A stretch of 6,996 nt of DNA from Deltaproteobacteria bacterium (GTDB lineage: Bacteria; Bdellovibrionota_F; JAHFAK01): assembly GCA_023250585.1 (NCBI GenBank), contig JAHFAK010000115.1:1-6996 (forward strand), read 5' to 3'. Positions 2,785 to 6,842 of this stretch are shown here, one piece after another. The notes beneath the pieces are model-generated. The model was not told where the DNA came from, ran no database searches, and saw nothing but the letters and a program-made list of their open reading frames with translations. The stretch's first letter is position 1. Each line of letters begins with the position of its first letter. The translations under genes were made by a program, and so were the position numbers.

Positions 2785-3185
2785 CTATCGAAGGGTTTTA
2801 AGTATATTCCCAATCATTTCTTTATCACGTTTTCGAGGATTAAAGCTCATGTATTTTTCAAGCGATTTTTTAGCTTCAGCAGTATGTCCTTCTTTTAAAA
2901 GAAGCATGCCCAGTTTTTTATAAGCAATCATGTAATTTGGATCAAGTTCAAGGGTTTTTTCATAGGAGTTAATCGCATCACTATTCGTTCGTTTTTCTTC
3001 AAAACAATTGCCCAGACGATAATAGTATTCAGATTGGAACGGGTTTAACTTAATTGCCGCTTCGTAGGCATTTCGTGCTTGGGAGTATTCACCTTTGGTA
3101 AAGTAAAATGAACCTTGGGCGAAAAGCTTCTTTGCTTCATTCCGATCTTCAATACTTATGCGAGCGATTTCTTCAGCTTGGGTAC
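2785..3185 (-). CDS. -1 frame continuation of the zinc-ribbon/TPR gene: C-terminal three-TPR segment
   Basis: After the A10 tract the - strand stays open in the -1 frame for 133 codons, to TAG at 2785-2787. The translation (starts STQAEEIARIS, ends NILKTLR) contains three consecutive 34-residue tetratricopeptide repeats in exact register: one ending AIKLNP, the next TLELDP, the third YMSFNP, each with G/Y/A positions normal for TPRs. No ATG, GTG or TTG lies in this frame between its upstream stop (TGA 3214-3216) and ATG 2931, which is within the repeats, so it is not a separate full gene. Joined through the A10 tract it extends the upstream product from 519 shared residues to 652. The shift may be real (ribosomal or transcriptional slippage), a recent mutation, or a homopolymer sequencing error; its coding quality is clear in all cases. 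Confidence 0.75.
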
Positions 3186-4742
3186 TTTTTTTTTTAATAC
3201 TGCTTGATGCAGTTCACTCAAAGAAGATGGTTTTGTTATAGCGGGAGGAGGTAGCATATCTTTTTGACCTGTAGCATGAGGAGTAAGTTCTGGATATTTA
3301 GCTTTTAATTCATTTTCGAGACTATCCACATATTTTTGATGGAAGTTAGCTTTAACCGTGTCTTCTTTGCTTTTTGCAATTTCGAGCAATTTTTTATGCG
3401 AACGAAGGAAGTTCTTATCATATTTTAAAGATGTTACAAAACTCGATGTGGCTTTAAGAATCAGTGCATTTTTTAAATAGTAAAGGCCGTAAAAGCAATA
3501 GACTTCCGGATCAGATTCATTTTCTGAAAGAAGGGCATCCAAGCTATTCTGCAGAAGGATAATATTTTCCGGCGTTGGATCTTTCGATAAATAATAAATT
3601 GCTAAGGTTTTGTCTTTTAACGTTTTTTCATTTTTTTCAAGAAGAGAAATAAGTTCTAAAGCTTGGTTAATAAGACTCGCATTATTTGAAACATATCCCC
3701 ACATTGCAAAATTCAATGCTCTATAGCCGGTAATAAGAGCATCAGGTTGATTTTCGGAGAGTTTCAAAAACTCATTTTCGGCCAATTGAAAAGAAGCCAA
3801 AGTATCAAAGCGATAAAAATCAACCGCTTTTTGGAAACGAGGATTTTCTAGAAGGAGAGTTCGTGTATCTTTTGGCTTTTCTGTGTGGGTCTTTGCTTGA
3901 GTATGTATCTGATTTACCGGAGTCTTTTTAAAGTATTTGCTGATCAGTGGCCTGCCAATATATGTTAATCCTGCAGTTATAACGACGATACATGAAATAA
4001 CCAGCCAACGAAAGGGTAGTTTAAAAATATTCTTTTTTGAAGATTCAGCAGCAGGTTTTTGTGATTCAATAGTATTCCGTTTTAATAGGTCTCCATGAGA
4101 CTTGCTCACATCTTTTTCAACAGGCAAAGGCTTATAATCCATGGGTAGCGGAATTTCTTCGTTCATAACTCCTTCATCAATAGAGAGGAGAGGCTCTTCT
4201 TTAAATTGAGGATTTGTTATCCCTTCATGTTGATTATCATCGATAACAATTTCAGGAATATTTTCTTTTGTTGTTTTTCGTATTTCACGCTGAGTTACTT
4301 CATGTATTTCTGATTGCTCGGGATCCAGAGAAGTTTGCTCGGTACTTTCAGTTTTATCAGGCGAAGTTTCTGCTTGAGAAATTTGTTGAGGTAATCGTTC
4401 AAATATTTTTTTAAAAGTATCAACTTCATTGATCTTTTGCCATTTCCCATTTGCATAGCAGACTTCATCATCTTGTCCTACTTTTTGTTCTTTTATCCAA
4501 TTTTTAATTATGCTGCTGTCATTAAAACCGTAGACTAATCCGTTTGATACACGAATACGCCAAAGGGTAACGCTTTCTTCTTCAGGCAGCTTTAAAGAAT
4601 TCGTAACAGGAATGCTTTCTTTAGGTACGCGAATGACAAATGTATACTGGCATTTTGAGCATTTTACTTTAAATTCCAAAGACTTAAGATTGTCTTCACT
4701 TAATCTATACTTTGTACTACATTTTGGACAGGTTATTTTCAT
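3156..4742 (-). CDS. MJ0042-type zinc-ribbon, GYF-like, single-TM protein with TPR-like C-terminal region
   Basis: The 0-frame product has 528 residues. Order: a zinc ribbon with CPKC (Cys5, Cys8) and CSKC (Cys28, Cys31), the MJ0042-type domain at the N-terminus of many deltaproteobacterial proteins; a domain at about 58-115 (W61, 'WIKEQKVGQDDEV', W101) like the GYF_2-type modules that often follow it; an acidic, proline-containing disordered linker (about 118-240); one membrane helix (about 246-263) preceded by basic residues; then a helical TPR/SEL-like region (about 300-470) and a Pro-rich linker (498-506). By the positive-inside rule the zinc ribbon is cytoplasmic and the repeats periplasmic. 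The likely role is scaffolding or transmembrane protein-protein contact; no enzyme motif is seen. The last nine residues (VPKLKKSLA) follow the A10 tract and are probably not the native end. Start ATG 4742 has AGGAAG upstream. It is divergent from the iron-sulfur gene. Confidence 0.82.
   Translation of the reverse strand: MKITCPKCSTKYRLSEDNLKSLEFKVKCSKCQYTFVIRVPKESIPVTNSLKLPEEESVTLWRIRVSNGLVYGFNDSSIIKNWIKEQKVGQDDEVCYANGKWQKINEVDTFKKIFERLPQQISQAETSPDKTESTEQTSLDPEQSEIHEVTQREIRKTTKENIPEIVIDDNQHEGITNPQFKEEPLLSIDEGVMNEEIPLPMDYKPLPVEKDVSKSHGDLLKRNTIESQKPAAESSKKNIFKLPFRWLVISCIVVITAGLTYIGRPLISKYFKKTPVNQIHTQAKTHTEKPKDTRTLLLENPRFQKAVDFYRFDTLASFQLAENEFLKLSENQPDALITGYRALNFAMWGYVSNNASLINQALELISLLEKNEKTLKDKTLAIYYLSKDPTPENIILLQNSLDALLSENESDPEVYCFYGLYYLKNALILKATSSFVTSLKYDKNFLRSHKKLLEIAKSKEDTVKANFHQKYVDSLENELKAKYPELTPHATGQKDMLPPPAITKPSSLSELHQAVLKKKVPKLKKSLA
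3186..3195 (-). other. A10 slippery tract (T10 on the + strand), frame-switch site
   Basis: Read on the - strand the codons are TTA AAA AAA AAA GTA, which include the classic slippery heptamer A_AAA_AAA. One extra A in the mRNA, or a -1 ribosomal slip, joins the zinc-ribbon frame to the three-TPR frame. It is the only homopolymer in the 55-base zone (3159-3213) where the switch has to happen. A 5-bp hairpin (ACTGC-ATCAA-GCAGT) lies just upstream. I see no strong internal Shine-Dalgarno or downstream stem-loop. Confidence 0.65.
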
Positions 4743-4856: not shown

Positions 4857-6842
4857 ATGCAGAGTTCGGCCATCGAAAAAAAAACTTTTCGTATAGAAGA
4901 TATTCAAAAGATTAATCTTTTTATCGATATTCCGTCGAGTGTACTCTATATACTCCAAGATAAGGTAGAATTTATTCCCATCCCAAGAGATTCGGCAGCA
5001 CGAACTTTTACGAATGAAGATTTAGATGTTAATAATTTTTATTTTCTTCTCAATGGACAACTTCGGGTATTTGGTCGTGATCAAACCGGCAAGGATCGTA
5101 TCGTTAATTTCTTGCGTAAAGGTGAATTTTTTCTCGATAAACAATTTGAATGGAACCAAGAAAAAATAGTCAGAGCCGAAGCAATTGTCGATTGTTTACT
5201 GTTACGAGTAGGGAAAAAAGAAGTACAGGAAATTTGTGAACTTGCACCGGTTCTCTATGAAAAGCTCAATTATATTTCTGATCGTATCGACAAGAGATTT
5301 AAGATGTTTTCTGATGATCCCAAGAAGAAAAGTTTATTAAAATTCATTGTAGAAAATGAACTCACCTATGCCAAACGTCTTAAAGTAACGCTTCTGGACA
5401 AATGTATTGATTGCAATGCCTGTTACGATGCGTGCGAAAATCGTTTTGGTCATAAACGTTTATACCGAAATGAATTACGTTTTGGAATTATTGACGTTAA
5501 TAGAAGCTGCCGGAATTGTTTTTATCCAATTTGTATTCCGCCTTGTGATTATGACAGCATCAAAATTGATACAAAGACAAAAGAGATTGTAATCCTCGAT
5601 ACCTGTACGGGTTGTAATGCCTGTGTTATTGCATGTCCATTCGATTGTATTGAACTTGTCCCTCGTCCTGATGTACCCGGAGGACAAAAAGCAAGCCTCG
5701 CTATTAAGTGTGAACATTGTCGTGGATATAAAGATGAAGCCTGTGTGACTGAATGCCCAACGAGCGCTATGACCCATGTCGATATGGTCGACTTGATTGA
5801 AAATGATAAGGTCATTGATTTTTTTATTGGAGGAAAAACAATTCCACATGCTGAATTCAGCGCCAAGTCCGTGCTACAAGATCAACCCTCAGGAAAACGG
5901 ACGCGCCTCCAGAAAGTTCGTTTAGGATTACAAGTGGTAATTGCGATTTTTTATTTTGTAATCCTCGGATACGATTGGTTAATAAAACATTTTTTTAGTG
6001 ATTATAAAGCTATAAACGACTATCTCCTTCAACTTACTTTTTTACCTGAGGGAATTTTAAAAAACTTTGCTGATAAACGTTTTATCCATATGATTGGTGA
6101 TCTTGGCGCTTTGTGGTTTTTGGGTAGTCTGACTTATCCATTAAAAAGCGTATTTCCTAATCTCTTCAGAAAATATGTAAACCCTATTGGGTATCTTGAT
6201 TGGCATATTTTTTTCGGAGTTATTGGTGCACTCAGTGTTTTTTTTCATTCTTCATTTAATTTTAACGGTTTGTTATCATCAGTATTGCTTCTTGTTTTAT
6301 TCTTTACGGTACTCAGCGGCTTCTTGGGCAGATATCTCTATGTTTCATTACCCAAAGGCATTCGCGGGACTGAATTAAAACTTACCGAACTCGAAGCAGA
6401 AGATAGTGAGCTTACAAAAAAACTCGAGGTCTTTTTTATTGAAAGCAAACGACACAAAGATCTCGTGAATGATATTACTAAATTTGTAACGATCAAATAT
6501 CCAGATCTTAACCTCACGGTTGATGATCTCAAGTCCTTTTTTAGATATAGTGGTAGGTTGCTTTTAGGAACTGTTCTTTTAATGATAAGCGATTTTATCC
6601 GCATAGTACGTATGCTCAAGATCAAACTCTTTTTTCCTAAGGATATTGCAATCCATAAAAAGCAGGTGAATCAGTTCATTTCGATTCTCAACAAAAAAGC
6701 GATCCTCCGAAGAAACATCGTGATTTTTGAAACCCTCAGGCAATTTACTCTTACCTGGTCTTATCTTCATAAGCCGGCAAGTTATCTTTTCATTGGGTTG
6801 CTTGCTATTCATGTCGTAACAAAGATCCTTTTTTATACTTAA
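4857..6842 (+). CDS. Cyclic-nucleotide-binding-like / four [4Fe-4S] ferredoxin / diheme b membrane fusion protein
   Basis: A 661-residue predicted electron-transfer protein. Residues about 20-145 resemble a cNMP-binding beta-roll: a Gly-turn region near 66-90, GE at 89-90 and RA at 106-107 recall a phosphate-binding cassette, but the cassette is degenerate, so ligand binding is uncertain. Residues 183-300 hold sixteen cysteines in the four-cluster order of DMSO-reductase-B-like ferredoxins: C183/186/189/193, C218/221/226/230, C250/253/256/260 and C285/288/296/300. The C-terminal half has membrane helices near 353-372, 409-428, 447-466, 471-492, possibly 566-585, and 640-660. Two of them carry H-x13-H pairs, H450/H464 and H638/H652, the spacing of bis-His diheme b bundles in ferric reductase/NOX-like and other cytochromes b. 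No FAD or NAD(P) domain is present, so electrons probably enter through the clusters from a separate donor. The acceptor is unknown. No in-frame start exists upstream of ATG 4857 (TAA at 4848). An A9 run lies at codons 7-10. Confidence 0.85.
   Translation: MQSSAIEKKTFRIEDIQKINLFIDIPSSVLYILQDKVEFIPIPRDSAARTFTNEDLDVNNFYFLLNGQLRVFGRDQTGKDRIVNFLRKGEFFLDKQFEWNQEKIVRAEAIVDCLLLRVGKKEVQEICELAPVLYEKLNYISDRIDKRFKMFSDDPKKKSLLKFIVENELTYAKRLKVTLLDKCIDCNACYDACENRFGHKRLYRNELRFGIIDVNRSCRNCFYPICIPPCDYDSIKIDTKTKEIVILDTCTGCNACVIACPFDCIELVPRPDVPGGQKASLAIKCEHCRGYKDEACVTECPTSAMTHVDMVDLIENDKVIDFFIGGKTIPHAEFSAKSVLQDQPSGKRTRLQKVRLGLQVVIAIFYFVILGYDWLIKHFFSDYKAINDYLLQLTFLPEGILKNFADKRFIHMIGDLGALWFLGSLTYPLKSVFPNLFRKYVNPIGYLDWHIFFGVIGALSVFFHSSFNFNGLLSSVLLLVLFFTVLSGFLGRYLYVSLPKGIRGTELKLTELEAEDSELTKKLEVFFIESKRHKDLVNDITKFVTIKYPDLNLTVDDLKSFFRYSGRLLLGTVLLMISDFIRIVRMLKIKLFFPKDIAIHKKQVNQFISILNKKAILRRNIVIFETLRQFTLTWSYLHKPASYLFIGLLAIHVVTKILFYT

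Follow-up and report, generated by a model that had tools for sequence, protein, structure and literature searches.

We have studied a zinc-ribbon/TPR gene that is divided between two reading frames at a run of ten adenines (A10). The window, i.e., the whole stretch of DNA analyzed, comprises 6,996 nucleotides, and the gene occupies its minus strand. It comes from a genome represented by a draft of 164 contigs (2,240,314 bases, about 35-37% GC), in which a second gene is broken at an A10 with the same offset. The explanation that we tentatively favor, judging it almost as likely to be right as wrong, is that the A10 is genuinely present in the DNA and that full-length protein is restored by slippage, of either RNA polymerase or the ribosome. 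The elements of the split are as follows.

3156 to 4742, minus strand: 0-frame ORF of 528 amino acids (zinc ribbon, acidic linker, probable membrane segment, conserved domain, Pro-rich linker)
3186 to 3195, minus strand: A10 tract at the junction of the two frames, containing A_AAA_AAA, read from the sequence
2785 to 3213, minus strand: open −1 frame of 142 codons, 133 of them used after the tract, with no usable start of its own

The homopolymer on the minus strand is exactly A10, running from window position 3195 down to 3186, with GCAGTATT before it and GTACCC after it. In the 0 frame it is read as TTA AAA AAA AAA, placing the slippery heptamer A_AAA_AAA in phase, and a TAG terminates the ORF nine codons further on. 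The −1 frame is limited by a TGA at 3214-3216 upstream and by a stop at 2785-2787, and a product made with the frame change has 519 + 133 = 652 residues. The coordinates, frames and lengths confirm the proposal of a preliminary description of this DNA, that A10 splits the gene and would give products of 528 and 652 residues. That description also named the tract as the only slippery element where the frame must change, and A10 is indeed the sole long homopolymer within the 55-nt interval concerned. Its third claim, of 133 codons in the −1 frame that encode three TPRs with no start codon covering them, agrees with a Pfam match to TPR_2 and with the position of the earliest ATG, GTG or TTG of that frame, which is codon 95 and too late for the TPRs. 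Independent initiation of the TPR part was therefore ruled out, as no such codon occurs before codon 95.

The −1 frame has the character of coding sequence. Using a codon-usage model trained on long ORFs of the same genome, it scores 0.23 bits per codon, compared with 0.18 in frame 0 upstream of the tract, whereas the remaining two downstream frames score −0.16 and −0.20 bits per codon, as expected of non-coding sequence. From base composition, the chance of 132 open codons in this frame is about 6e-5. Both halves of the split gene have normal codon usage, and neither carries a further lesion.

A homologue is found in a class-level relative, Deltaproteobacteria bacterium RIFOXYA12_FULL_61_11 (G001), as one uninterrupted ORF of 840 amino acids with the same order of domains. 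The 0-frame part aligns with the zinc ribbon and middle domain of this protein (31% identity over 191 amino acids, E 6e-18), and the −1 part, over its full 141 residues, aligns with the C-terminal TPRs (28%, E 1e-14). Since both halves lie in one ORF in this relative, the TPRs belong to the split gene, and comparison of the sequences indicates that the long form is most likely ancestral. The two proteins thus share domain order and 28-32% identity over both halves, but the G001 protein is read in a single frame, lacks the A10 tract and has much longer linkers. The gene adjoining the homologue (L003 2-919) encodes another CxxC zinc-ribbon/TPR-like membrane protein, which suggests that such genes form a small paralogous cluster in G001. 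A search of the genome contigs with the protein alone as query found no relative, and a search with the two-sequence alignment found only G001 and unrelated zinc-ribbon proteins. The DNA pattern spanning the tract was absent from the viral contigs, and plasmid records gave no match.

The intact homologue could be taken as a sign that the gene has recently been inactivated, leaving a truncated 528-residue product that lacks the TPR part, with the gene on course to become a pseudogene. A single lesion located at a mutable run is what such an event would leave. The absence of any other lesion and the normal codon usage of both halves argue in the opposite direction and, if the A10 is real, published precedents (PMC4256274, PMC5009743) predict slippage, making complete loss unlikely. 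We therefore regard recent inactivation as improbable. The preliminary description had named homologues with an intact frame and no A tract as grounds for refutation, and the G001 homologue is of this kind, but a class-level relative with about 30% identity is too distant to discriminate a recent mutation from maintained slippage.

The domains of the predicted protein are distributed over the two frames in the following manner.

4635 to 4742, minus strand: zinc ribbon, residues 1-36, CxxC...CxxC, MJ0042-type (Pfam Zn_ribbon_4, E 1.8e-12; TIGR02098 MJ0042_CXXC, E 1e-8)
3954 to 4010, minus strand: hydrophobic stretch RWLVISCIVVITAGLTYIG, residues 245-263, probably one membrane span, from reading the translation
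Residues about 309-491 of the 528-residue ORF, minus strand: conserved domain, followed by the Pro-rich linker
2833 to 3138, minus strand: three 34-residue TPRs in the −1 frame (Pfam TPR_2, E 3.7e-17), aligning with the C terminus of the intact homologue

From the order of these domains we infer a bitopic inner-membrane protein, in which the zinc ribbon would be cytoplasmic and the helical and TPR region periplasmic. The TPRs probably dock a partner, in which case the short form would remain anchored but be without the docking surface. Assignment as a GltJ-type gliding protein was rejected; the match to NF033761 is confined to the GltJ N terminus and covers only residues 1-39, at 20.4 bits against a cut-off of 450. 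Inspection by eye had also suggested a GYF-like domain following the zinc ribbon, for which Pfam gave no support. Elsewhere in the window, 33-740 encodes an MlaC-like lipid-transport protein (Pfam MlaC, E 1.4e-21), and 1131-2765 is an ORF of 544 amino acids with a lipoprotein-like N terminus and no Pfam match. A divergent gene at 4857-6842 encodes a cyclic-nucleotide-binding domain, 4Fe-4S clusters and a membrane region, and has an intact A9 near its start (4876-4884).

The second broken gene encodes an M23 peptidase and lies on another contig, with its A10 at G000:C156:41322-41331 (L023 1501-1510). The upstream part of 132 amino acids ends QKKKF*, and the part in the −1 frame has 187 amino acids including Peptidase_M23 (E 1.8e-31). 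The equivalent gene of G001 is once again one ORF. Its C-terminal part is 43% identical (E 1e-45), and the N-terminal part matches up to a shared AIGPL motif with E 1.9e-6, a value from local BLAST calculated without composition correction. The lesions in the two genes are in the same direction, and one added A in the transcript would restore either. The RNA directly 3′ of the M23 tract (L023 1511-1575) is predicted to fold strongly (−16.1 kcal/mol, z −2.2), ranking second among 88 flanks, and this structure could promote slippage of the ribosome at that site.

We also examined the runs of A across the genome. There are nine A10 runs in the 2.24 Mb and none longer, together with about 145 exact A9 runs (163 A9 windows minus two for each A10). 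All nine A10 runs fall in genes or at gene ends; the frame is kept at seven and broken at two. By contrast, none of the 80 A9 runs read was classed as gene-breaking, where the classification used an automatic spanning-frame test for 63 of 89 runs and inspection by eye for most others, so that a short or weak case may escape. The difference (2/9 against 0/80) has a Fisher p of 0.009. A detector of frame breaks, seeking start-less downstream frames with coding usage, was run over about 0.47 Mb of partly overlapping stretches enriched in the neighborhoods of A runs. At its strict setting only the zinc-ribbon/TPR gene was found, and a relaxed setting added the M23 gene and pairs resembling ordinary adjacent genes. 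A general problem of indels in the assembly is thus not supported, as no further gene in the 0.47 Mb was clearly broken in frame. The conclusion that emerges from the run comparison and the clean screen is that the breaks are specific to A10 and do not reflect general sloppiness of assembly.

Long runs are disfavored in this genome. In a 197-kb sample the counts fall by a factor of 0.37-0.44 for each added base from A4 to A8, and by 0.15 at A9; the step from A7 to A8 is 0.37. Over the whole genome the ratio of A10 to A9 is 0.06. These step ratios indicate a steep depletion of A9 and A10. Avoidance of such runs has been linked to slippage, whether by RNA polymerase or in replication (Baranov et al.; PMC1088944), and the steep fall-off is as expected if such runs are harmful.

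The specificity for A10 leaves a serious competitor, one that we consider a substantial possibility while rating it below an even chance, in which the consensus lacks one base. In that case the DNA would contain A11, or replication slippage, possibly including phase variation, would have produced a mixture of A10 and A11. The identical one-base change would mend both broken genes, and a draft assembly, here of 164 contigs, can present a mixed A10/A11 population as a single length. There is also no run above ten anywhere in the 2.24 Mb. However, from the A9-to-A10 ratio only about 0.6 A11 runs are expected, with a probability of 0.57 of finding none, so their absence is unsurprising and neither supports nor weakens any reading; two real A11 runs would be a mild excess (P 0.11). 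Set against a short consensus are the seven A10 and 80 A9 runs without loss of frame and the lack of other frame breaks in 0.47 Mb.

The reading that we prefer supposes a genuine A10 in the DNA and slippage in this organism. The mechanism that we propose begins with a single gene for an inner-membrane protein, in which A10 sets the last 133 codons one frame out; the frame would most likely have been lost through deletion of one A from a longer run. The majority of transcripts would then give the 528-residue form without the terminal TPRs, and in a minority RNA polymerase slippage would add one A and so allow synthesis of the 652-residue form. Ribosomal slippage by −1 at A_AAA_AAA might possibly contribute. 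The loss of frame would be tolerated because slippage restores enough full-length protein. Polymerases are known to slip on A runs, insertion being the common type (PMC5574713), and by analogy with other systems a genuine A10 would be expected to cause slippage.

A possible stimulator of slippage lies upstream of the tract.

3199 to 3213, minus strand: small hairpin ACTGC-ATCAA-GCAGT of 5 bp, with a 3-nt spacer 5′ of A10

This 5′ hairpin has a folding energy of −6.1 kcal/mol and a shuffle z of −1.6. We give it little weight because its flank is only 6th in stability among 88 upstream flanks, and equally good folding is seen in 16 of 200 shuffles. The 61 nt downstream fold more weakly than shuffled sequences (z +1.4), giving no indication of a 3′ stem-loop, and no Shine-Dalgarno-like stimulator was seen on reading the upstream flank. 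Thus, of the elements of −1 frameshifting of the dnaX type, the slippery heptamer is present in phase, but a stimulator, as a 3′ stem-loop or a 5′ Shine-Dalgarno-like sequence, is not.

These data bear on whether the gene is a selected and programmed source of two products, both lengths being needed and slippage being stimulated by the 5′ hairpin. The split does fall at a domain boundary and the 0-frame tail is short, and, among the nine A10 runs, those in the two broken genes rank first and second for stability of the upstream flank (−6.1 and −2.1; next −2.0), although this was a post hoc test on nine runs. Against this, the hairpin is weak, the M23 flank is at the level of chance (z 0.05), and the intact homologue yields the long form only. 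We consider such programming very improbable. Scarcely more credence can be given to an extended version, a programmed envelope device outside the reduced-genome symbionts, in which hairpin-assisted polymerase slippage at A10 would set the ratio of short to TPR-bearing protein and would also control the M23 peptidase. Productive slippage generating two forms had been put forward in the preliminary description. It is supported in part, by there being a single gene whose frame shifts by a net −1 where two domains meet, and by precedents that make slippage at such a run physically likely; the usefulness of two products and a conserved stimulator do not share that support.

If the A10 is real, as in the reading that we favor, then one 2.2-Mb draft genome contains two envelope genes that need slippage to be read to the end. 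The class of "pseudo-pseudogenes" would be extended to a poorly known lineage, with a caution against annotating such genes as dead. If the A10 is not real, the genes are a reminder that a draft consensus loses frame at A10 runs.

The split gene has a number of characteristics of known poly-A slippage genes. There is an A/T run of at least nine in a coding region, homologous coding continues in the frame reached by adding an A, and such runs are depleted. The hairpin 5′ of A10 recalls the stem-loop that assists slippage in a Roseiflexus IS element (PMC5009743). Genes for dnaX with two ORFs and ten A's are known from several species (PMC3711429); like them, our gene is a bacterial gene in which A10 joins two ORFs, but it is represented by one genome. 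By the criteria of the same study, a single lesion in one genome falls in the singleton class, ascribed to likely indel mutation or sequencing error. In Blochmannia and Buchnera, frameshifted poly-A genes give 12-50% corrected transcripts (PMC5009743). There too, several otherwise intact genes per genome are interrupted only at long A runs (PMC3017870, PMC5009743), but the genomes of those symbionts, tiny and very AT-rich, have over 100 coding runs of at least nine, compared with 2.24 Mb, about 35-37% GC and depletion of such runs here. In Yersinia tssM3 a run of nine A's slips at 15-25%, and in Citrobacter rodentium tssM1 an A11 lies 28 nt before the stop, where added A's lead to 20-25% of full-length product (PMC4256274). 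The C. rodentium run is A11 rather than A10, and its slippage, the ratio of products and the need for both forms were established by experiment, whereas our case is drawn from sequence. Nevertheless, in both genes a poly-A run lies just upstream of the 0-frame stop (by 28 nt in tssM1 and nine codons in our gene), and in both an extra A restores the C-terminal domain of an inner-membrane protein, a domain that is present in homologues.
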